NCBI GenBank assembly: GCA_030527165.1
Contig: JAUNBH010000013.1
Span: forward strand, 1-33,535
Direction of reading: 5' to 3'
DNA length: 33,535 nucleotides
From: Clostridia bacterium
GTDB taxonomy: Bacteria; Bacillota; Clostridia; Christensenellales; CAG-138
The notes beneath the pieces are model-generated. The model saw only the letters and a list, made by a program, of their open reading frames with translations, made no database searches and had not been told where the DNA came from. Positions 2,454-24,376 of the stretch are shown here, one piece after another. The translations under genes were made by a program, and so were the position numbers. Each line of letters opens with the position of its first letter. The first letter of the stretch is position 1.

Positions 2454-2482
2454 TATACATTTGCTGGGCGCTATGGTATAAT
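2454..2482 (+). promoter_or_regulatory. Probable sigma-A promoter of the glycosyltransferase-GtrA pair
   Basis: A perfect TATAAT at 2477-2482 with extended -10 TGG at 2474-2476 lies 17 bases downstream of a weak -35 TATACA (2454-2459). It sits in the 71-base gap after yraN and would give a leader of about 30 bases. Confidence 0.7.
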
Positions 2483-2518
2483 CACCCGGTAAAACTATTG
2501 ATTGTTATGGGAGGCAGT

Positions 2519-5500
2519 ATGCGCAATCGTAGCATTTTCGTAGTTCTCACGGTTCTGCTCCTGTCGATATGCTTGAGCTTTTCGGGCTGCAGCACGGAGC
2601 AAGAGATAGGCGCAGAGCTGATAAAGAACGGATCGTTCAGCGCTGAAGGCGATGGCGCGCCCGATGGCTGGACAGTTACCGGTTGGGACCTCAGCACGAG
2701 CATATCGTACTTCGAGATTGTATCCGATGGCGGTCGAGAGGACTGCGTGCATCTGGTAAATGCATATCCAAATGATTTTCGCCTCGAACAGACCGTTAAT
2801 GTCGCTCCCAATTCGTTCTACAAGCTTACATGCTATGTGAAGACTGCCGGTGTTACGGGTGGAACCGCAGGAGCCAATATCTCTTTGACCGACTCGCTTG
2901 CTACCTCCGTCGGCATTCTGGGAACGACTGAGTGGCAGCAGATTCAGCTCATTGGCAAGACAGCGTCCGGGCAAAAGCATATCAACGTCGCCATTAGACT
3001 TGGCGGGTTCGGCAGTGAGGCGAGCGGTGAAGCTTGGTTTGACGATTTCAGCATAGTTCGCATAAACGCCGAGGAGGCCGGCACACAGTATGCGGACTTT
3101 TCATACTACACAGTCAGCGACACAGAAGACGATGGGTACGTTTCCGATGCGGTGTATGGATATGTACTCGCTGCGGCTCTCTTGACCTTCACCGCACTGG
3201 CTTACGCGCTCGTTCGACAGATATCGAAGCCGGTTGAACTGAATGACACATCTGGTGACAGAAGACTGAAGCTCGTGCTGATACTCGTGATCGCGTTTGT
3301 GTTTCGCGTTGTGTGTTCACTCGTTTTCCAAGGTCACACAACGGATTTAGGCTGCTTTGTGGGGTGGGCAAATCACGCTGCCGACGTGGGAATCTCAAGC
3401 TTCTATGAGACGATTTCATTCTGCGACTACCCTCCCGGATACATGTATGTGTTGTGGTTAGTAGGATCTATTGGCAAGCTAATTGGTGTGAATTCCGGGC
3501 CGTTTTACTACATACTGATAAAACTTCCGTCCATGCTTGCCGACTTAGTCGTGGCTTACCTGCTGTACAGGTTGGTACAGTCAAAGTTCTCACAGCGCGC
3601 TGCGGTTGCCGCACTGATCGTCGCCGCATTCTGCCCCGCTTTCATGTTCATAAGCGCCGGATGGGGGCAGATAGATCAATTGCTTGCCCTGTGCATTTTG
3701 CTGGCGATGTATATGTTCATACGCGGCAAGGTATTGCCCGCCGGGTTGCTCTATGGGCTTGCAATTCTCATGAAGCCCCAGGCGCTCATATTCGGACCGC
3801 TGTTCTTTGTGGCATATATGCTGCACATAAAGGATTCCGACGAGCGCAATAAGTTTGGTATAACGCCGATAGGCTATGTAGTACTGGCGGCGGCTGCGGT
3901 CGCGGCATATCTTTCCATAGGGGAAGGCGCCTCCGACGCGTACGTCACCATAGGCATAGTGCTCGCCTGCGTCGCGCTTGCGGCGTTTGTGGCTGACTTC
4001 GTGATGAGCAGTGGCGAGCGCCGAAAAACGCTTTTGAATGTGCATGGCGCCGTTGCAGGCGCGGTGGCATTGGTGCTCTTAGGAACACTTCCATTCAAGG
4101 GCGGGCAGGAATTCCTCTGGTTCATAGACAAGTACGCGGGAACAGCTACATCGTACAGATATGCGAGTATAGAGGCATTTAACCTGTTTTCGCTGTTTGG
4201 GGGGAATTGGGCGCCGGTGGACACCGTGTTCATTCTGGGGATGAGTTACGAAACCGTAGGAAGCGTTCTAATCGCGCTCTCTTGTGTCGTCACGGCAGTG
4301 TTCTATGCCTATGGTCGTAGAACGAGCGATGGATGTATTTCGCTCTGTGGCGCGTATATTATTGTAGCGGTATTTGTGCTCGGTCACTTCATGCATGAAC
4401 GGTATTTAATGCCTGCTTTGGCATTGCTGCTGTTTGCATCCTTCATCTACAACGACCGGAGGCTTTACTGGTCGTTTGCGCTGTTTGCAAGCACATTCCT
4501 GTTCAACGCACTGTTTGCGTTCTTTGTCGTTGCGTATCCGGAGTGGAGAACTACCATATACAATGCCATGCTGCGCATTTGCTCTTTGGTAAACGTACTC
4601 GGCTTTGCATATCTGACGTACGTTTGCGCCGATATAACCATAAGGAAGCGTACCTCGCCTATACTCACGAAGAAGGACAAACAGTCGCTTAAACTCAGCG
4701 CAGCTGAATATGACAAAAACCGAGAGGAGACTATTGCTGATATGAGCCGTGCAAAGAGGGATATGACGGTTAAGGTCGCGCCTGTGTACTTGCCGGAGCC
4801 GACGGACAATAAGCTTCGCTACTCAAAGCGGGACTATATCTTCTGCATATCGTTAACTGTCCTCTACGCTGTCGTGGCAATTCTTAATCTTGGTTCGCTT
4901 AAAGCGCCTGAGAGCTATTGGATCGCCTCCGGCGGAGACAGTTTCAATATAATCCTGGAGGAAGAGACGTACATATCGGAAGTGCGCATATTCGGCGGCA
5001 TTGAGACTACACCATCGCGGACGACGAGTATAACGGTTGAGAGCGATTCCGGAAACATGGCGACATACGAGTTTGAAAATGGCGATATGTTCCGATGGAC
5101 GGTAATGATGTCGCCGGCAGAGACATGCTCAAATCTGACCGTCACCATTACGGGAGGCGAGGCGTGGATAAACGAGATTGCGCTGTTTGACGGCGACAAT
5201 CAGTACATACCGTATACTGTGGATAACGACGAAGCGCTCGCTGTGTGCGATGAGCCGGAGGAAGTTGAAAACGTGCCGTCTAATCTCAACGGGATGTACT
5301 TTGACGAGCTCTATCATGCGAGAACGGCTTATGAGCACGCCAATGGCCTCAATCCCTACGAGAACTCGCATCCGCCGCTTGGCAAGGTGTTTATATCTAT
5401 TGGCATCGCCATATTCGGCATGAATGCTTTTGGTTGGCGAATCATTGGCACTTTGTTTGGCATTGGCATGCTCCCGATAATGTATGCTTTTGCGAAGCGC

Positions 5501-6541
5501 CTCTTTAAGAAGTCGGAGTTTGCCCTGCTGGCGACGGGACTGTTAGCGCTGGACTTCATGCACTTTACGCAGACGCGGATAGCGACTATTGACGTCTATT
5601 CCGTGTTTTTCGTCATTCTCATGTACTACTACATGTATCAGTACTACTGTATGAACTTCCATGTCGATGGTCTCAAAAAGACGCTCAAGCCACTGGGCTT
5701 GGCGGGCCTGTTTTTTGGGATAGGCGCGTCCTGCAAGTGGACAGGCATTTATGCCGGCATGGGACTCGCCGTTATACTTGCTATTTCGTTGGTAAAGCGT
5801 TGGATTGAGTACAGAAATGTGATGAGAGACGGTTCAGATGCGGAGCGCGCTGCGGTATCGGGCTGTTGGAAGAAGATTATTCTGACTCTGGCATGGTGTT
5901 GTGTGTTCTATATCGCGGTGCCAGTGACAATTTATCTGCTGTCCTATATACCGTACATGCTCTGCGAGTCACCTCGTGACATACAGGGAATACTGGATTT
6001 GCAGGCGTATATGTTCAACTATCACAGCTCATTAACGGATACGCATAGCTTCCAATCCGCGTGGTATTCATGGCCGTTTACCATACGACCGATATGGTAT
6101 TACAACGCTAGCCACACCGCCTCCGGCATGGCAGGGTCTATTTCGGCATTTGGCAACCCCGCCGTATGGTGGTTGAGTACAATTGGAACCGTGGCGCTCG
6201 GCGCGGGCCTCTTGAGCAAAAGAGTCAAATCCGAGAAGGGAATGACCATAGCTTTTATAGGAATCGCCGCAAATCTGCTGCCGTGGGTCTTTGTCACTCG
6301 ATGTACGTTTATATACCATTTCTTCGGTACGGTGCCGTTCATTATACTCTGCGCGGTGTATCTACTGAAAGCGCTTGAGGAACGACTGCCGTCGCTTGCG
6401 CCTGTAAAGTGGGTGTGGCTCGCAATCGCACTGGTGTTATTCGCAATGTTCTACCCGGTGCTGTCCGGCACCCCTGCATCTGTCGACTATGTGAACTGGT
6501 TGGAGTGGATGCCATCGTGGGTGTTCACTAATAAGGTGTAG
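2519..6541 (+). CDS. Giant multidomain glycosyltransferase with two GT-C-like membrane domains (PMT-type C-terminal half)
   Basis: This 1340-residue membrane protein starts at the ATG at 2519, behind GGGAGG at 2509-2514. Residues 1-24 form a signal peptide ending in FSGC, a possible lipobox with C24. Residues 30-190 resemble a carbohydrate-binding beta-sandwich (NGSFS, GWT, EAWFDDFSI). After a membrane helix, residues about 250-710 form a first GT-C-like domain with D276 in TTDLGCFVGWA and a DYPPGYMYVLW loop near 303. A charged cytosolic linker precedes a second unit. There a helix is followed by a discoidin-like sandwich (about 798-890), then the protein-mannosyltransferase motifs DELYHART (D929, E930) and HPPLGK (951-956) and further helices. 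PMT enzymes move mannose from a polyprenyl-phosphate donor to Ser/Thr of exported proteins. Here the acceptor, sugar and activity of the N-terminal half are unknown. Confidence 0.85.
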   Translation: MRNRSIFVVLTVLLLSICLSFSGCSTEQEIGAELIKNGSFSAEGDGAPDGWTVTGWDLSTSISYFEIVSDGGREDCVHLVNAYPNDFRLEQTVNVAPNSFYKLTCYVKTAGVTGGTAGANISLTDSLATSVGILGTTEWQQIQLIGKTASGQKHINVAIRLGGFGSEASGEAWFDDFSIVRINAEEAGTQYADFSYYTVSDTEDDGYVSDAVYGYVLAAALLTFTALAYALVRQISKPVELNDTSGDRRLKLVLILVIAFVFRVVCSLVFQGHTTDLGCFVGWANHAADVGISSFYETISFCDYPPGYMYVLWLVGSIGKLIGVNSGPFYYILIKLPSMLADLVVAYLLYRLVQSKFSQRAAVAALIVAAFCPAFMFISAGWGQIDQLLALCILLAMYMFIRGKVLPAGLLYGLAILMKPQALIFGPLFFVAYMLHIKDSDERNKFGITPIGYVVLAAAAVAAYLSIGEGASDAYVTIGIVLACVALAAFVADFVMSSGERRKTLLNVHGAVAGAVALVLLGTLPFKGGQEFLWFIDKYAGTATSYRYASIEAFNLFSLFGGNWAPVDTVFILGMSYETVGSVLIALSCVVTAVFYAYGRRTSDGCISLCGAYIIVAVFVLGHFMHERYLMPALALLLFASFIYNDRRLYWSFALFASTFLFNALFAFFVVAYPEWRTTIYNAMLRICSLVNVLGFAYLTYVCADITIRKRTSPILTKKDKQSLKLSAAEYDKNREETIADMSRAKRDMTVKVAPVYLPEPTDNKLRYSKRDYIFCISLTVLYAVVAILNLGSLKAPESYWIASGGDSFNIILEEETYISEVRIFGGIETTPSRTTSITVESDSGNMATYEFENGDMFRWTVMMSPAETCSNLTVTITGGEAWINEIALFDGDNQYIPYTVDNDEALAVCDEPEEVENVPSNLNGMYFDELYHARTAYEHANGLNPYENSHPPLGKVFISIGIAIFGMNAFGWRIIGTLFGIGMLPIMYAFAKRLFKKSEFALLATGLLALDFMHFTQTRIATIDVYSVFFVILMYYYMYQYYCMNFHVDGLKKTLKPLGLAGLFFGIGASCKWTGIYAGMGLAVILAISLVKRWIEYRNVMRDGSDAERAAVSGCWKKIILTLAWCCVFYIAVPVTIYLLSYIPYMLCESPRDIQGILDLQAYMFNYHSSLTDTHSFQSAWYSWPFTIRPIWYYNASHTASGMAGSISAFGNPAVWWLSTIGTVALGAGLLSKRVKSEKGMTIAFIGIAANLLPWVFVTRCTFIYHFFGTVPFIILCAVYLLKALEERLPSLAPVKWVWLAIALVLFAMFYPVLSGTPASVDYVNWLEWMPSWVFTNKV

Positions 6542-6544
6542 CGC

Positions 6545-7033
6545 ATGGAGAAGAAGGGGTTCCTGCAGTTTATAAAGTTCGGATTGGTCGGGGTATCGAA
6601 CACGATCGTGGATTTCGTCGTGTACACGGTGCTGGTGACCTTCACGCCGCTGAGCTATGTTCTATCCCAAGTTATATCGTACACTTGCGGCGTGCTCAAC
6701 AGCTACCTCCTCAACACTGCATGGACTTTTAGGGAGGAGCGCAAGCGCAACATCAAGGAATTTGCGGAGTTCGTTTTGGTCAACGTGGTTTCACTGGGAG
6801 TATCCATTGGAATACTGTACCTGTGCACGAATTATGTGTTTGCAGACGGCGTTCTGGCGCAGGGGTTGATGGATATATCCGGCGGACTGTTCGATACAGT
6901 TGAAAAGGCCATCGAGATACTGAGCAAAATCGTCGCTACGCCAATAGCAATAATAGTGAACTTCGTTGGCAATAAGCTGCTCGTGTTCCGCAAAAGCGGC
7001 GGCGAAGGTACGGGGGCCGACGATGTTAGGTAA
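6545..7033 (+). CDS. GtrA family membrane protein
   Basis: This 162-residue protein has four predicted membrane helices and matches the GtrA family: FIKFGLVGVSNTIVDFVVY at the N-terminus, the NSYLLNTAWTFRE connection after helix 2 and NFVGNKLLVFR at the C-terminus. Some GtrA proteins are implicated in moving polyprenyl-phosphate-linked sugars across the membrane. The start at 6545 lies 3 bases after the stop of the giant glycosyltransferase, with AAGGTG at 6533-6538. This tight coupling supports a role in providing or recycling lipid-linked sugar for that enzyme, which is inference. A somewhat long loop of about 40 residues separates helices 3 and 4. It overlaps comM by 11 bases. Confidence 0.9.
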   Translation: MEKKGFLQFIKFGLVGVSNTIVDFVVYTVLVTFTPLSYVLSQVISYTCGVLNSYLLNTAWTFREERKRNIKEFAEFVLVNVVSLGVSIGILYLCTNYVFADGVLAQGLMDISGGLFDTVEKAIEILSKIVATPIAIIVNFVGNKLLVFRKSGGEGTGADDVR

Positions 7034-15073: not shown

Positions 15074-15889
15074 CTATGTATCGGTTGCCGGCAGTCTGTT
15101 GACTATTGTGGATATGGCTGCAAAACTCATGCACAGCAGCGCCATCATTCGATAGTACAGCGCATAGCGCATTATAAACGACAACAAGAATAACACGCCC
15201 GCGAGCACGACATACCCCATAGCGCGACTCCTTAAGAAGGGCTTGATTCGAGTGAATCGTGTGCCCTTCTTATCTTTTGCGAGCGAAGCGAGCAAGCGTG
15301 CGTCTACCTCAGCATCGTCGATTTGAGTGACTAATCCGCAATCTAACGCGAGCGCTATGAATTCTTCCGAGAGATAGAAACGAAATGTGCATTCGCCAAG
15401 CGCGCGCTCGATAGCAACGGCTTCCTTAGTAAGTGCTGCCACAGTGAACACCGCTATCTTGGACTTTCCGGCGTCTTTTGCAGCTCTATAGGCCGAAAGC
15501 AGACAGTCTTCGTTTACTTCCCGCAGGGATTGATGCACATACAGGTGCCAATCGGTGTTAGGTAAGGCGCGCTTACAGCATTCCAACAGCGCATCCGAGC
15601 TGGAAGTGAGCATATCTATCTGCTGGTACTCGCGTCTCAGCTTAGCACGCTGATGTGATATGTGCCTGGCGAGGACGCGGCGCTTAATGGCTTCAATCAG
15701 CGCCGACAGGAGCGCGAGGCCTGCGAGCGCGAGCACTATGGCGGCGGAGTCGCGAACGGATGATAGAAAGAACAAGTACAGCGCACAGAACAACAGCAAG
15801 CGCATGAACATGAAATCTATCGCTCTGCCTATCTTGCTGCGGCCGCGATATAACGATTTCTTGTAGTACTCGAGTACTTCGGCTCTCAT
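15074..15889 (-). CDS. Unrecognised membrane protein with central soluble domain
   Basis: I do not recognise a named family for this 271-residue protein. It has a basic N-terminus, two adjacent hydrophobic helices at about residues 27-68, a soluble central region of about 150 residues, and two more helices near residues 227-263. The soluble part contains NTDWHLYVHQSLREVNEDCLL, then a strand-like KIAVFTVAAL and a FRFYLSEEFIALAL segment; the alternation of helix and strand vaguely recalls restriction-endonuclease-like folds, which is speculation. The ATG at 15889 follows GAGGTG by 5 bases on the minus strand. It is convergent with hslU and divergent from pepT. Its coding sequence contains a strong terminator-like hairpin at 15233-15272 and a 14-base palindrome near its start. 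Confidence 0.85.
   Translation of the reverse strand: MRAEVLEYYKKSLYRGRSKIGRAIDFMFMRLLLFCALYLFFLSSVRDSAAIVLALAGLALLSALIEAIKRRVLARHISHQRAKLRREYQQIDMLTSSSDALLECCKRALPNTDWHLYVHQSLREVNEDCLLSAYRAAKDAGKSKIAVFTVAALTKEAVAIERALGECTFRFYLSEEFIALALDCGLVTQIDDAEVDARLLASLAKDKKGTRFTRIKPFLRSRAMGYVVLAGVLFLLSFIMRYALYYRMMALLCMSFAAISTIVNRLPATDT
15233..15278 (+). terminator. Terminator-like hairpin inside the minus-strand membrane-protein gene
   Basis: A perfect 10-bp outer stem pairs 15233-15242 (TAAGAAGGGC) with 15263-15272 (GCCCTTCTTA). Within its loop GATTC (15245-15249) pairs with GAATC (15254-15258). On the plus strand TCTTTT follows at 15273-15278. It is oriented to stop hslU transcripts about 170 bases after the hslU stop, while lying within the coding sequence of the opposing gene. 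Confidence 0.6.
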
Positions 15890-18498: not shown

Positions 18499-18517
18499 GT
18501 GCGCTTTGGCATACAAT
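18489..18517 (+). promoter_or_regulatory. Candidate sigma-E (sporulation) promoter of yunB
   Basis: TAACATT (18489-18495) matches the sigma-E -35 consensus KMATATT at 6 of 7 positions. A 14-base spacer leads to CATACAAT (18510-18517), which matches the -10 consensus fully. In Bacillus subtilis yunB belongs to the mother-cell sigma-E regulon, so promoter class and gene agree. The same bases could be read as a weaker sigma-A promoter (TTAACA, 18 bases, TACAAT). Confidence 0.65.
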
Positions 18518-18522
18518 ATAAC

Positions 18523-19215
18523 ATGGATGACGTTAGAAGGCGTAGGTCGGGTGCGGCACAGAGGCATAATCGGATAGGCGCGATGATGGCTGTGATCATT
18601 GTGACGCTGCTGTTGCTGTATTGCTATATCTCTATTACGTCTAATATGAATCCGGCGGCGGTCACTCTCGCGGAGGCGCGAACGAAGGCAATGGTGACCG
18701 AGGCGCTCAACGACGCCATAATCGATACTGTGGAGCAATATGCAGCCGGAATCGAGCTGTTGGATATAAGCAGAACCGAAGATGGCGTATATTTGATTGT
18801 GGCGAATACCGTGGCGATGAATACGGTTGCAGCGCACTGCATAGAGTTTGCGCAAGACGCAATAGCCGCATTTGCGGAACAGGGAGTATCGGTGCCGCTC
18901 GGGACTATGACAAACATACCCTTTTTAGCGGGTGTCGGGCCACAGGTGAGTTTTAAGTTTGCACCTGTCGGTAGTGTGGAGAGCGACTTTACATCGGAGT
19001 TGACTTCGGCAGGAATCAATCAGACGCTATACAAAGTCAATTTGAAGCTTGCTGCTACTGTGAGCCTTATAATGCCGACGCAAATCAAAACTCTCGACGT
19101 ATCCGCGAGTGCGGCAATAGCCGAGAGCGTCATAGTAGGCGATGTACCGGAGGTTTATACCAACGTACCAGAGGAGGACATGACGAACCTTATACCTACG
19201 GACCCGTTGGATTAG
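18523..19215 (+). CDS. yunB: Sporulation protein YunB
   Basis: This 230-residue protein is homologous to YunB, a mother-cell protein needed for proper spore formation. A basic N-terminus (RRRRSG) precedes one membrane helix (about residues 22-38), then an extracytoplasmic domain. The C-terminal half has the family signature: FKFAPVGSVESDFTSELTSA, GINQT, and AESVIVGDVPEVY. The ATG at 18523 is chosen because the basic segment and helix match the family, but it lies only 5 bases after the -10 element with no binding site, implying a leaderless or near-leaderless message. ATG codons at about 18583, within the helix, are the alternative. Its stop overlaps the convergent thiI stop by 4 bases. Confidence 0.88.
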   Translation: MDDVRRRRSGAAQRHNRIGAMMAVIIVTLLLLYCYISITSNMNPAAVTLAEARTKAMVTEALNDAIIDTVEQYAAGIELLDISRTEDGVYLIVANTVAMNTVAAHCIEFAQDAIAAFAEQGVSVPLGTMTNIPFLAGVGPQVSFKFAPVGSVESDFTSELTSAGINQTLYKVNLKLAATVSLIMPTQIKTLDVSASAAIAESVIVGDVPEVYTNVPEEDMTNLIPTDPLD

Positions 19216-21546: not shown

Positions 21547-21701
21547 AAGCAAAACCTCTTATAAGATTATGAGTAAACTCATATATCACATATATGCAAT
21601 GCAGCTTAAAACCGCAACAACGACCTTATGATAACACAATAACATGGAATATGAAATGAGTTTTTGTTCTCATTGTATATGATTCTGAAGAGAAAAAAGT
21701 A

Positions 21702-21730
21702 GTGACATCGTAGAAAAAGCGTGCTATAAT
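21702..21730 (+). promoter_or_regulatory. Probable sigma-A promoter of the tRNA-Thr/tRNA-Pro unit
   Basis: GTGACA (21702-21707, one mismatch to TTGACA), a 17-base spacer, and a perfect TATAAT (21725-21730) with extended -10 TGC. It starts 14 bases upstream of the tRNA-Thr gene. Confidence 0.85.
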
Positions 21731-21743
21731 CCAATTCGTCAGC

Positions 21744-21819
21744 GCCAATGTAGCTCAGTTGGTAGAGCAGCTCACTCGTAATGAGCAGGTCTGGGGTTCG
21801 AGTCCCCACATTGGCTCCA
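21744..21819 (+). tRNA. tRNA-Thr (anticodon CGT)
   Basis: The acceptor stem pairs GCCAATG (21744-21750) with CATTGGC (21809-21815), followed by discriminator T and an encoded CCA (21817-21819). The anticodon stem GCTCA/TGAGC closes the loop CTCGTAA, giving anticodon CGT at 21777-21779. The T-arm contains GGTTCGAGTCC. It reads ACG codons and is followed 6 bases later by tRNA-Pro in the same transcript. Confidence 0.97.
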
Positions 21820-21825
21820 TTTTTA

Positions 21826-21902
21826 CGAGGCGTAGCGCAGTTTGGTAGCGCGCTTGGTTCGGGACCAAGAGGTCGCAAGTTCAAATCTTGTCGCCTCGAC
21901 CA
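21826..21902 (+). tRNA. tRNA-Pro (anticodon CGG)
   Basis: The acceptor stem pairs CGAGGCG (21826-21832) with CGCCTCG (21892-21898), followed by discriminator A and encoded CCA (21900-21902). The anticodon stem CTTGG/CCAAG closes TTCGGGA, giving anticodon CGG at 21860-21862. The T-arm has AGTTCAAATCT. It reads CCG codons and ends directly against a terminator. Confidence 0.97.
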
Positions 21903-21903
21903 C

Positions 21904-21940
21904 GTCGTCGCAAGCTAGATATCGCTTGCGGCGGCTTTTC
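21904..21940 (+). terminator. Intrinsic terminator of the tRNA-Thr/tRNA-Pro unit
   Basis: A 12-bp stem (21904-21915 with 21924-21935, including two G-T pairs) around loop TAGATATC is followed by TTTTC. The 5' arm starts one base after the tRNA-Pro CCA. It is nearly identical to the terminator of tRNA-Leu at 23446-23482. Confidence 0.92.
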
Positions 21941-22522
21941 TATTCTCTGCAGTAAAAAGCCCTATGCACCACTTCGCTGTGGCTCCTTCTCGCAAAAAGT
22001 CACACTTGCTGCACCTATGCCCTTATGAGCGCGGGCATAACCTTCCCGCTGTGTTACCAATTTTCTGTGGCTTCACCTGCGGGCTGGAATACCTAAACCG
22101 ACGACATGCCAACAGCGTGATGCTGCACCCGATATCGCAACTCACCTTTGCGAGTTACGATATCTTTATGGCAGAAACACCCGTATCGCTTTTATCAACG
22201 TAATCCAGTTTAAAATCCAGATTCCAGGGTCTTCCTGTTTCTTGCGACGCATCTGCAGAAACTTTTCGCGTGCTCAGAGCTTCATGGTGACTTCGCATAA
22301 CACAGTATCTTTCCGACACCATACCCGACGTATCGGTTTGCGCATTCAAGGCCGATGAGAACGCAGAAGCGATATGGGATTATACTGCCAGACGCATTCC
22401 CATAATGCTTATTCGATTGGTACTTATTTGTCGCACAGAATAGACATCGTATCTTGTAACTTGCTTTATCTTCACGCTTATAGTAGGGTGGTGATGAACT
22501 GATTGTATCTTTGGAGGCTATT
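21941..22522 (+). other. Gene-poor, hairpin-containing intergenic stretch
   Basis: No credible protein gene is visible in these 580 bases: open frames on either strand lack ribosome binding sites and show no family motifs. Two clear inverted repeats are present: TATGCCC/GGGCATA (22016-22022 with 22033-22039) and a longer one at 22131-22164. In the latter GATATCG and AACTC pair with GAGTT and CGATATC across one mismatched pair, followed by TTTATGG. Nothing else is recognised. A structured noncoding RNA or decayed element is possible. Confidence 0.5.
22454..22484 (+). promoter_or_regulatory. Possible promoter of the TIGR04076-like gene
   Basis: TTGTAA (22454-22459) and TATAGT (22479-22484) are separated by 19 bases, which is longer than usual. 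It lies about 40 bases upstream of the coding start. Weak evidence. Confidence 0.3.
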
Positions 22523-22873
22523 ATGAGAAAGTGGTACGCAGAAGAGTATGAGTTTGTAATAGAGGTCAAGGGATTTCTCAACAGCGACACGACCGAAGGT
22601 TACTGCCGCAATGGCGAGGAGCCGGGGGATGTGTATGCTTGCACATATGGTTGCCCGGTAAACGGCGAAGGTCAGGGAATCTGTTCAAAAGTGATGATGG
22701 TATTGTTTCCCATCATGGAGGCGGTCAGAAGCGGGGGAGACTTGATGAATATTGGCGGCAGCGGCATGTACAGCAAGACCGTTGTGTGTCCTGACGGCTG
22801 TGTCATATTCCAACTGACCGCGCGACCTCTTGGAAACGCAAATTTTTATGTGGGGGGTTTTATTGGGCAATAG
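22523..22873 (+). CDS. TIGR04076-like small protein of unknown function
   Basis: This 116-residue protein resembles the TIGR04076 family, which has no assigned function. Visible features are an N-terminal EYEFVIEVKGF strand, a cysteine-containing middle (ACTYGCPVNGEGQGICSKV), the MMVLFPIMEAVRSGGDL helix and a C-terminal CPDGCVIFQLTAR strand pair. The C-terminal tail is slightly longer than the core I expect. The ATG at 22523 is fixed by GGAGG at 22513-22517; a few upstream in-frame codons add nothing. It stands alone between the tRNA-Pro terminator and a structured noncoding segment, with no functional neighbours. Four cysteines might bind metal, which is inference only. Confidence 0.75.
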   Translation: MRKWYAEEYEFVIEVKGFLNSDTTEGYCRNGEEPGDVYACTYGCPVNGEGQGICSKVMMVLFPIMEAVRSGGDLMNIGGSGMYSKTVVCPDGCVIFQLTARPLGNANFYVGGFIGQ

Positions 22874-22888
22874 CGGTGATGCTCGCTT

Positions 22889-23028
22889 AAAAAGCTGTTA
22901 CGCACTGCATTGCCGCCGAGACGTAACGAGGCAGGTGAGAGCCTTCCGACTCTGCCCGGCGCGATGTCGTAGAACTCGCAAATGCGCCCGTCTTTCACTA
23001 TGTCGAATGGGCGCATTTGCTTTCGAGT
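22889..23028. other. Structured noncoding segment with a 12-bp perfect inverted repeat
   Basis: GCAAATGCGCCC (22978-22989) pairs perfectly with GGGCGCATTTGC (23009-23020) across a 19-base loop, and ACTC/GAGT extends it beyond a 4-base bulge. Upstream, GTTACG (22893 region) can pair with CGTAAC (22922 region), and GGCAG with CTGCC near 22930-22957. No U-tract follows on either strand, so a simple terminator is not the best reading. It lies 3' to two convergent genes. Candidate RNA or repeated extragenic element; family unknown. Confidence 0.5.
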
Positions 23029-23042
23029 CAACGCTGTTACCG

Positions 23043-23246
23043 TCAATCCGTGATATCCCTTTTCTTTACAACGGGCGCGGGGATGGGATAGAGCTCCTGA
23101 TAGGCGTCAGCCTCAGCTTCAGTGTGAATCGGCGTGGGAATGAGCCCTGTGCAATCGCAGAGTGAGGCCGTACTGTTTATATCGTAGTAAGCCAGCTCAT
23201 TGGCGTCGAGCTTTGGCCTTCGCTTATTGTCAGGTAAATGGTTCAT
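23043..23246 (-). CDS. Small conserved-looking protein of unknown function
   Basis: This minus-strand frame encodes 67 residues: a basic start (MNHLPDNKRRPKLDANE), a tyrosine-rich AYYDINSTASLCDCTGL segment with two cysteines, then an acidic, proline-containing stretch (IPTPIHTEAEADAYQELYPIP). It has no membrane helix. GGAGG sits 7 bases upstream of the ATG at 23246, the strongest reason to believe it is translated. No family is recognised with certainty. It converges on the TIGR04076-like gene, with the large inverted repeat just beyond its stop, and is divergent from tRNA-Leu. Its function cannot be inferred from context. Confidence 0.65.
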   Translation of the reverse strand: MNHLPDNKRRPKLDANELAYYDINSTASLCDCTGLIPTPIHTEAEADAYQELYPIPAPVVKKRDITD

Positions 23247-23317
23247 ATTAGTGCCTCCGTCGTTTTGGTATTAGGTATTATGGTTGAGTTGCGTGAAGAT
23301 CATTCGTTAAAAACAGT

Positions 23318-23346
23318 TTGCATTTCCATGCTTTGTATGCTAATAT
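23318..23346 (+). promoter_or_regulatory. Probable promoter of tRNA-Leu
   Basis: TTGCAT (23318-23323), a 17-base spacer and TAATAT (23341-23346) with extended -10 TGC (23338-23340), ending 11 bases before the tRNA. Confidence 0.65.
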
Positions 23347-23357
23347 AACCCGTGTTA

Positions 23358-23444
23358 GCCGAAGTGATGGAATTGGCAGACGTGACGGACTCAAAATCCG
23401 TTGGTAGCGATACCGTGTGGGTTCGAGTCCCACCTTCGGCACCA
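23358..23444 (+). tRNA. tRNA-Leu (anticodon CAA)
   Basis: An 87-base class II tRNA with a long variable arm. The acceptor stem pairs GCCGAAG (23358-23364) with CTTCGGC (23434-23440), followed by discriminator A and encoded CCA (23442-23444). The anticodon loop CTCAAAA, closed by ACGGA/TCCGT-type pairing, gives anticodon CAA at 23392-23394, reading TTG codons. The T-arm contains GGTTCGAGTCCC. Confidence 0.97.
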
Positions 23445-23445
23445 C

Positions 23446-23482
23446 GTCGCCGCAAGCTACATATTGCTTGCGGCGGCTTTTT
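23446..23482 (+). terminator. Intrinsic terminator of tRNA-Leu
   Basis: A 12-bp stem (23446-23457 with 23466-23477, one G-T pair), loop TACATATT and a TTTTT run (23478-23482). It begins two bases after the tRNA CCA end and is a near-copy of the terminator at 21904-21940. Confidence 0.93.
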
Positions 23483-23689
23483 GACGCAGTTTGTTTCCGG
23501 GAATGCCGATTTGCGGATGCATCCTGATTAAGATAGGGCAGATGCTTCCTTAGCTGATTGTGCAATGCGAGACGATGTGATATGTTTACTCTCTAACTCA
23601 CTATCACGCTTAAGCTGTGCCTGGTCTTGCGCCGGCACAATGTATTCCGGTCTGCGGCAAATGGCTGAGGCGTGCATGGACTCTGAGTA

Positions 23690-24376
23690 ATGTATGGCAA
23701 GGTGATGAAAGTGTTTGACGTGGAAAGCTACATGACACGACTGATTGTTGCGCTGCACGAACAGTTTGGCGTCCGGCTAATGTATGTCGGCCTGCAGGGC
23801 AGTTATCTTCGCGGGGAGGCGAATGATCGAAGTGACATTGATGTTATGGTCGTTATCGAGGGACTTGGAGTGCGCGACTTGGGTATTTACCGTGATGTGA
23901 TTCTGGCATTTGAACGACCGGACCAATCGTGTGGGTTTATATGCAGCAAGACCGACTTGGCAAATTGGAATTCGCTTGAAATGTGTCACCTGCTCCACAG
24001 CACGCGGGATTATTACGGCACTTTGCGGCAATTTGTTCCGTCGTACACTGAGAACGATGTGCGTAACTTCATTAGAATGAGCGTAAACAATCTATACCAC
24101 GCCATATGTCACCGCTATATTCATGCAGGGCGTGACAAAAGCGCCGAGAGGCTGCCGACTGCGTATAAAGAAGTGTTCTTCATACTTCAGAATCTGTGTT
24201 ACGTCGAGCGCGGCGAGTTTGCTCAGACAAAGGCGCAGCTGCTGACATTGCTTTCAGGTAAGGATAAGTTGGTGTTGGAGCGTGCTATTGCCTTTGACAG
24301 CAACGCTGAGTTCAATTTTGACGAAAGTTTTGAGCTGTTGTTCTCATGGTGCCAAGAAACGTTGCCGCGTGTATGA
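23690..24376 (+). CDS. Nucleotidyltransferase-fold protein
   Basis: Up to 228 residues. The nucleotidyltransferase signature is intact: GSYLRGEANDRSDIDVMVV, with the GS pair and the DxD metal-binding aspartates (about residues 48-50). A helical C-terminal region of about 120 residues, rich in aromatic and basic residues (FIRMSVNNLYHAICHRY), follows. Such stand-alone proteins resemble antibiotic or tRNA nucleotidyltransferases and HEPN-linked forms, and the substrate cannot be read from sequence. The start is uncertain: ATG 23690 has no good binding site, ATG 23705 abuts one, and GTG 23711 has AAGGTG at 23699-23704 with the best spacing. The gene stands alone downstream of tRNA-Leu and is followed by a hairpin and then a terminator. 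Confidence 0.8.
   Translation: MYGKVMKVFDVESYMTRLIVALHEQFGVRLMYVGLQGSYLRGEANDRSDIDVMVVIEGLGVRDLGIYRDVILAFERPDQSCGFICSKTDLANWNSLEMCHLLHSTRDYYGTLRQFVPSYTENDVRNFIRMSVNNLYHAICHRYIHAGRDKSAERLPTAYKEVFFILQNLCYVERGEFAQTKAQLLTLLSGKDKLVLERAIAFDSNAEFNFDESFELLFSWCQETLPRV

Follow-up and report, generated by a model that had tools for sequence, protein, structure and literature searches.

Can a single bacterial polypeptide house two complete membrane glycosyltransferases of different classes, and what would such a protein make? The question is raised by a 33,535-nucleotide stretch of DNA (hereafter the window) from a Clostridia bacterium of the Christensenellales lineage CAG-138 (GenBank assembly GCA_030527165.1, contig JAUNBH010000013.1). 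One open reading frame (ORF), running from an ATG at position 2519 to a stop codon ending at 6541, encodes 1340 residues. From the N- to the C-terminus, the product comprises a domain resembling carbohydrate-binding modules (CBMs), a GT-C unit of the ALG6/PIG-M type, a linker predicted to be cytosolic and a PMT (GT39) unit whose first outer loop holds a beta-sandwich. By analogy with characterized enzymes, we lean towards reading this fusion as a two-headed, extracytoplasmic, lipid-sugar-dependent O-glycosyltransferase, in which the PMT unit would prime exported proteins and the N-terminal half would extend the primed glycan.

Two different GT-C enzymes in one chain

The C-terminal half belongs with the PMTs. 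Residues 950-1334 match the Pfam families PMT_2 (E = 3e-23), PMT_4TMC (4e-23) and PMT (2e-16), and the curated cut-offs are passed for both PMT (60.6 against 22.7 bits) and PMT_4TMC (82.4 against 32.4 bits). In an AlphaFold2 model of residues 716-1340 (pLDDT 84, pTM 0.86), residues 770-1338 superpose on Pmt4 (9i5l_A) with a Z score of 33.9 and a root-mean-square deviation (rmsd) of 3.0 over 425 residues, and on Pmt2 with a Z score of 32.7. More generally, the fold is shared with Pmt1, Pmt2, Pmt4 and MtPMT (Z 32-34 over 420-429 residues), as are the DE motif, a second Asp and an Rx2F/Y element. Across 103 aligned PMT halves, D929, E930, R935, H951, K956, D1025 and K1073 are invariant, and R1261 is kept in 101, with Lys in both exceptions. 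The essential residues of MtPMT are D74 of the DE motif, D176 in extracellular loop 2 (EL2), and R441 and Y444 of the Rx2Y element (PMC12331936); in our own assignment, their counterparts would be D929, D1025 and R1261-x2-F1264. Unlike the fungal and mycobacterial PMTs, the window's C-terminal half has no MIR domain in a later loop, carries a beta-sandwich in loop 1 and is fused to a second GT-C unit. Against the NCBIfam equivalog NF058602 (protein O-mannosyltransferase) it scores 82.8 bits, the cut-off being 800. It is therefore a GT39 relative outside that equivalog, and mannose should not be assumed as its sugar.

The loop-1 beta-sandwich (residues 801-901) lies, in the AlphaFold2 model, between the first transmembrane helix of the PMT unit (770-789) and D929-E930. 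The F5_F8_type_C profile matches it weakly, in 1 of 29 members (E = 0.19), and Foldseek matches to CBM32 modules have E values of 0.1-0.8 at a probability of about 0.97, the domain having been modelled as part of the PMT half. The outer loop that contains it (790-957) holds 29 Asp or Glu residues and 6 Lys or Arg. Given this charge distribution and the basic linker at 708-768, the linker is predicted to lie inside and both active-site loops outside.

The N-terminal half is also a GT-C enzyme by fold. In the AlphaFold2 model of residues 1-722 (mean pLDDT 82, pTM 0.74), residues 245-712 superpose on yeast ALG6 (6snh_X) with a Z score of 25.2 and an rmsd of 3.5 over 387 residues; ALG3 (Z 24.2), glycosylphosphatidylinositol (GPI) mannosyltransferase I (22.7) and PimE (18.9) follow. 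The Pfam GT87 profile matches residues 304-462 (E = 2e-8; 34.5 bits against a cut-off of 25) and 21 of 21 members (E up to 1). The unit thus shares the fold of ALG6, PIG-M/GPI mannosyltransferase I, PimE and GT87 enzymes (Z 19-25), and both D276 and DYPP align with ALG6. In the profile alignment, D276 falls opposite the Asp of ALG6 GDFEAQRHW, which we take to be the catalytic D69. The unit differs from its ALG6 kin in being bacterial, fused and preceded by a CBM, and sequence similarity is weak (6snh, E = 0.024). Among 90 aligned N-terminal halves, split forms included, D276, W283, Y304, W382, Q384, K419, H626, R628 and Y629 are invariant, and the motifs HERY, WGQID and KPQ are invariant or nearly so.

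This conservation bears on whether the N-terminal half is an enzyme at all. It could instead be a partner dispensable for catalysis whose task is to place the donor lipid or the acceptor, much as PMT subunits pair in fungi, where the enzymes are dimeric (entries 6p25 and 9i5k); fusion would guarantee a 1:1 ratio, and some PMTs do occur without an N-terminal half. We regard this as quite unlikely, given that a scaffold is not expected to keep the full set of D276, W382, Q384, K419 and HxRY unchanged in 90 relatives, including split forms. The original prediction, made from the sequence of the window alone, had allowed that one half might be a donor-handling module. Such a role is disfavoured because the N-terminal Asp and the HERY, WGQID and KPQ motifs are (nearly) invariant, and because the flippase role is taken by an adjacent GtrA gene. 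Internal duplication of a single GT-C unit was rejected, none being recognizable: profile comparison of the two halves gives a probability of 3%, and the halves therefore represent different GT-C classes.

Ahead of the first GT-C unit, residues 31-186 superpose on 4d0q (VIA; Z 18.1, rmsd 2.1, 144 residues), a relationship also found by profile comparison (E = 1e-7), and the CBM_4_9_1 profile is matched in 15 of 21 members. The domain shares the fold of CBM4/16/70 modules; in the window, however, the module sits on a glycosyltransferase rather than on a hydrolase. Within the first GT-C unit, an insertion of about 57 residues (442-499; window positions 3842-4015) forms an extra helical hairpin, which is present in the window and in L016, from the same genus, and in none of the other 19 alignment rows.

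Much of the original prediction has therefore stood. Its 1340-residue fusion of two GT-C-like domains with two beta-sandwiches is borne out by the ORF, Pfam and the AlphaFold2 models. The full PMT domain with D929-E930 and HPPLGK is confirmed by Pfam, the Pmt4 fold and invariance in all 103 sequences, and a beta-sandwich, weakly resembling CBM32 modules, does lie in the first external PMT loop, before the DE pair. The N-terminal half, on which the prediction might have failed, has a GT-C fold, and no characterized single-active-site enzyme of the same architecture was found in the literature searched.

An artefact or frameshift fusion is ruled out, as fused forms recur in independent genomes and in a sister genome. 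Full-length homologues occur in many metagenome-assembled genomes at roughly 39-53% identity; because of these and of the invariance of both motif sets, the architecture is far beyond chance.

Flippase and donor-synthase genes

A gene for a GtrA-family flippase begins 3 bp past the stop codon of the fusion, and gtrA lies directly downstream of the fusion in most related loci of the family. It adjoins 19 of 34 loci in which the fusion includes a CBM, as well as several split loci. In the window, no GT-A synthase of polyprenyl-phosphate-sugar is adjacent to the fusion. A candidate, the DPM1-like gene at L040, lies elsewhere in the same genome, which has three GtrA-type genes. When the L040 protein was used as a query, a DPM1-like synthase was found to adjoin the loci of several other families; synthase, GtrA and fusion occur all together at L092, L096, L097, L108 and L130. 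At three loci (L075, 4298-4928; L076, 4679-5177; L077, 4900-5398), the ORF with the GtrA-like BLAST match runs several hundred bases into the 3' end of the fusion; the overlap is probably not real but due to extension of the open frame.

This neighbourhood recalls the multi-component transmembrane glycosylation systems of Gram-positive bacteria, such as CsbB/GtcA/YfhO and GtlA/GtcA/GtlB, which likewise combine an adjacent GtrA protein, a GT-A synthase (adjacent here in relatives of the fusion) and an extracytoplasmic GT-C enzyme (PMC8035078). The window's protein differs from them in having two GT-C heads in one chain, and its acceptor is probably a protein. The likeness nonetheless gives rise to a rival explanation, namely that the fusion decorates a membrane glycolipid or a wall polymer, such as a secondary wall polysaccharide or one resembling teichoic acid, and that each head contributes a single side-chain sugar. 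A GtrA gene next door and a GT-A synthase elsewhere make up the classic three-component set; the PMT_2 protein GtlB of Listeria glycosylates lipoteichoic acid; and AftD, and possibly YfhO, have carbohydrate-binding domains on the outside that are thought to engage the acceptor polymer (PMC8035078). In addition, almost all genomes of the family carry the gene, which would be expected if its function lay in the wall. Set against these points, the C-terminal half has the PMT_4TMC domain and the four-residue PMT active-site signature, and protein glycosylation depends on the best characterized Bacillota relative, which shares the loop-1 domain. We consider decoration of a wall polymer or glycolipid unlikely.

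The Caldicellulosiruptor gene pair

That relative is Cbes_1864 of Caldicellulosiruptor bescii, a GT39 enzyme. Its deletion abolishes all detectable extracellular glycoprotein, is complemented in trans and also ends growth on crystalline cellulose, and a sugar-binding-like beta domain occupies outer loop 1 (aa 32-124) (PMC6151902). Cbes_1864 therefore resembles the window's C-terminal half in combining a PMT with a loop-1 beta domain. It differs in being a separate gene product of about 566 aa without an N-terminal CBM, encoded among cellulases, a WG-repeat protein and a peptidyl-prolyl isomerase.

A corresponding locus was found in genome G853, which we infer to be Caldicellulosiruptor from its gene order, its 1701-bp PMT ORF and its flanking GH9-CBM3-GH5 and GH48 genes. 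The encoded PMT, with its loop domain at residues 32-131, is 28% identical to the window's C-terminal half over its length (E = 4e-66), and the gene that follows encodes a homologue of the N-terminal half (E = 6e-21; 154 bits in another search). The GH9-CBM3-GH5 gene lies on one side and the GH48 gene on the other, the PMT and N-half genes being followed by those for a WG-repeat protein and a PPIC-type isomerase. Since both halves match this gene pair, the window's protein is in effect the Caldicellulosiruptor pair in reverse order, linked into a single chain. In the parts of the C. bescii study consulted, the neighbour of Cbes_1864 is not discussed as a transferase (PMC6151902).

Genes at L129 (6115-8744) for a WG-repeat protein and for a prolyl isomerase of the PPIC type are clustered with those of the PMT pair and cellulases, which suggests that the two products are folding helpers for glycosylated exoenzymes. 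The linkers of CelA and of the cellulosome are reported to be mostly O-galactosylated (PMC5939190), a further reason not to assume mannose.

Distribution, fusion and fission

Homologues are widespread. Matches were found in 94 of 103 genomes of the window's family, and 49 of 50 good genomes carry a homologue of the fusion protein. Across the order (248 genomes), the N-terminal half occurs in 153 and the PMT in 93, with both present in 91 of those 93. In the class (391 genomes), the counts are 130 for the N-terminal half, 136 for the PMT and 123 for both, against 45 expected when relatedness is not corrected for. In the phylum sample, the PMT was found in only 15 of 398 genomes at E = 1e-40. 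This distribution through family, order and class rules out an oddity of one lineage.

Among 101 loci, 63 are fused (35 with and 28 without an N-terminal CBM), 25 have adjacent genes and 13 have no same-strand N partner; these loci were our own choice and partners were judged by a distance rule, such that the proportions reflect sampling. One of the 13, L060, does have an N gene, whose overlap exceeds the rule. Lineages of the class switch among fused, adjacent and solitary states.

Such switching raises a further possibility, that two independent transferases with unrelated acceptors were fused by chance of operon neighbourhood. It would fit the 62 of 153 genomes of the order that have the N-terminal half without a PMT match. 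Yet co-occurrence in the class is far above expectation, fusion is retained across most PMT-bearing families of the order, and the two halves have flippase and synthase neighbours in common. A chance fusion of this kind thus appears highly improbable.

Within the window's family, the 13 split loci form one clade in a concatenated tree (support 95), and the other PMT-bearing families of the order examined are mostly fused; fission is therefore likely to be derived in this family. A PMT-only tree had suggested many fissions, which the concatenated tree does not bear out. The separate PMT gene has, in many split loci, a CBM of its own that groups with the CBM of the neighbouring gene and not with the C-gene CBMs of other families. 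A single clade of C-gene CBMs, as expected of an ancestral second CBM, is rejected by an approximately unbiased (AU) test (p = 3e-6), branch supports in the CBM tree being mostly 83-93. These results suggest that the CBM was regained after fission and that the module helps each head.

Two side observations concern partial forms of the locus. In two further families of the order (L087 and L088), the corresponding site next to comM holds just a CBM plus GT87-like gene of about 710 aa; those sampled genomes of the two families that are listed as negative have no PMT match. In addition, extra stand-alone CBM genes of about 240-290 aa lie directly upstream of GT-C genes at L117 (381-1238), L105 (4140-4892), L127 (5310-6041) and L133 (227-1825).

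A proposed mechanism

PMT enzymes act on proteins, and enzymes of the ALG6/PIG-M type act on glycans. On account of these classes, the PMT head is expected to act first and the ALG6-like head second. A cytoplasmic GT-A synthase, for which the DPM1-like L040 gene product is a candidate, would load undecaprenyl phosphate with sugar, and the adjacent GtrA protein would aid flipping of the lipid-linked sugar. Both GT-C active sites would lie outside, with the flipped lipid as their sugar donor. The PMT unit at the C-terminus would place the first sugar on Ser or Thr of exported proteins. The N-terminal unit would then extend it, probably by a second sugar on the same glycan, such that the protein would leave carrying a disaccharide or a longer glycan. 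Both the CBM-like domain and the sandwich in loop 1 may keep the acceptor, or the glycan as it grows, close to the two sites.

Of the original proposal that two fused transferases could perform successive sugar additions, the fusion of two transferases is upheld by the folds and active sites, and successive addition is the likeliest, if indirect, reading. The target, which had been left unnamed, can now be narrowed: by analogy with Cbes_1864, the closest characterized relative of the PMT half, which is needed for glycosylation of exported proteins (PMC6151902) and whose neighbour in a Caldicellulosiruptor-like genome is an N-half homologue, the acceptor in the window's lineage may also be protein.

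Several observations weigh against this two-headed mechanism. The GtrA gene is not adjacent to the fusion in many other families of the order, and the N-terminal half is nearest to ALG6, PIG-M and GT87 by fold and weak sequence scores only. As 13 of 136 PMT-bearing genomes of the class lack a detectable N-terminal half, this half is not always required. The C. bescii deletion took the PMT gene only (PMC6151902) and so does not bear on the role of its neighbour. Finally, GT-C families are plastic: because some PMT_2 enzymes, Listeria GtlB among them, modify teichoic acids (PMC8035078), the acceptor might be a wall polymer.

Sequence features and genomic context

The features of the locus are collected in Table 1. 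The original prediction had described the N-terminal signal as lipoprotein-like, a label that is doubtful: FSGC (residues 21-24) has an atypical Phe at position -3, and a typical lipobox is absent from most of the 14 fused relatives compared. Judged from sequence, the lipobox may be genuine solely in the window's genus.

Table 1. Features of the fusion locus (positions in the window)
Feature	Residues	Position	Strand	Basis
Extended -10-like element, TGG-TATAAT, upstream of fusion gene		2474..2482	+	Consensus match only
GGGAGG, likely ribosome-binding site		2509..2514	+	Sequence inspection
Fused dual GT-C protein	1-1340	2519..6541	+	ORF, Pfam, homologues with same architecture in related loci
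N-terminal signal sequence, with FSGC as doubtful lipobox	1-24	2519..2590	+	Sequence
CBM4/16/70-like beta-sandwich	31-186	2609..3076	+	AlphaFold2, VIA Z 18.1 to 4d0q
Extra transmembrane helix tethering CBM ahead of GT-C unit 1	210-235	3146..3223	+	AlphaFold2 secondary structure
GT-C unit 1, ALG6/PIG-M/GT87-like	248-707	3260..4639	+	VIA Z 25.2 to ALG6; GT87 profile
Catalytic-type Asp of GT-C unit 1	D276	3344..3346	+	Profile alignment with ALG6; invariant 90/90
DYPPGY, counterpart of ALG6 DYPPLTAF	303-308	3425..3442	+	Profile alignment, conservation
HERY of GT-C unit 1	626-629	4394..4405	+	H626, R628, Y629 invariant 90/90
Hydrophilic linker, 15 K/R, predicted cytosolic	708-768	4640..4822	+	Composition, AlphaFold2
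First transmembrane helix of PMT unit	770-789	4826..4885	+	AlphaFold2 helix
Discoidin/CBM32-like beta-sandwich in PMT outer loop 1	801-901	4919..5221	+	AlphaFold2 strands; weak Foldseek matches
PMT (GT39) catalytic membrane unit	915-1338	5261..6532	+	Pfam PMT_2, PMT, PMT_4TMC; VIA Z 33.9 to Pmt4
PMT DE motif	D929-E930	5303..5308	+	Aligned with Pmt1/Pmt4 DE motif; invariant 103/103
HPPLGK	951-956	5369..5386	+	H951, P952, K956 invariant 103/103
GtrA-family flippase gene		6545..7033	+	Pfam GtrA_DPMS_TM 3e-32

The fusion gene appears to sit in a housekeeping stretch. Reading names from ORF translations, we take the gene order to be ylqF, rnhB, a gene in the yraN position, the fusion, gtrA, comM, dprA, topA, trmFO, hslV and hslU; this order is preserved in most related loci. 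Elsewhere in the window, a 271-aa membrane-protein-like ORF on the reverse strand (15074-15889), with no Pfam match at E = 0.01, lies between hslU and a peptidase gene. A YunB-type sporulation protein (Pfam, 3e-29) is encoded at 18499-19215, in a genome of 1.54 Mb. The segment at 21553-23690 is poor in genes: its roughly 2.1 kb hold three tRNA genes (Thr, Pro and Leu) and two short ORFs without a Pfam match. An orphan nucleotidyltransferase-like ORF follows (23690-24376).

Perspectives

The individual elements have precedents: PMTs, a GT39 enzyme with a CBM-like domain in loop 1, operons with GtrA, and GT-C enzymes that bear CBMs. Literature searches on GT-C fusions and on Christensenella glycosyltransferases turned up no polypeptide that holds two complete GT-C enzymes of different kinds. 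In the same literature, the case for GT39 enzymes as protein O-glycosyltransferases in Bacillota depends essentially on a single deletion study, that in C. bescii. From the present analysis, Cbes_1864 gains an apparent partner, the neighbouring GT-C enzyme. In most families of the window's order that have the PMT, and in several further families of the class, the pair forms one chain; it is also tied to a flippase and a lipid-sugar synthase.

It is possible, though to be held tentatively, that the fusion is widespread in Clostridia as a general machine for O-glycosylation, its single chain both priming exported proteins and extending the glycan with membrane lipids as donors, and that its halves are the pair behind the glycosylation of exported, perhaps cellulosomal, cellulases in Caldicellulosiruptor. 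If so, it would be a single-chain counterpart, with two active sites, of the separate enzymes of the eukaryotic endoplasmic reticulum. For two lipid-dependent sugar transfers in succession, the fusion provides a Rosetta stone, and a gene of common gut bacteria that had gone unstudied now points to a pathway that can be tested.

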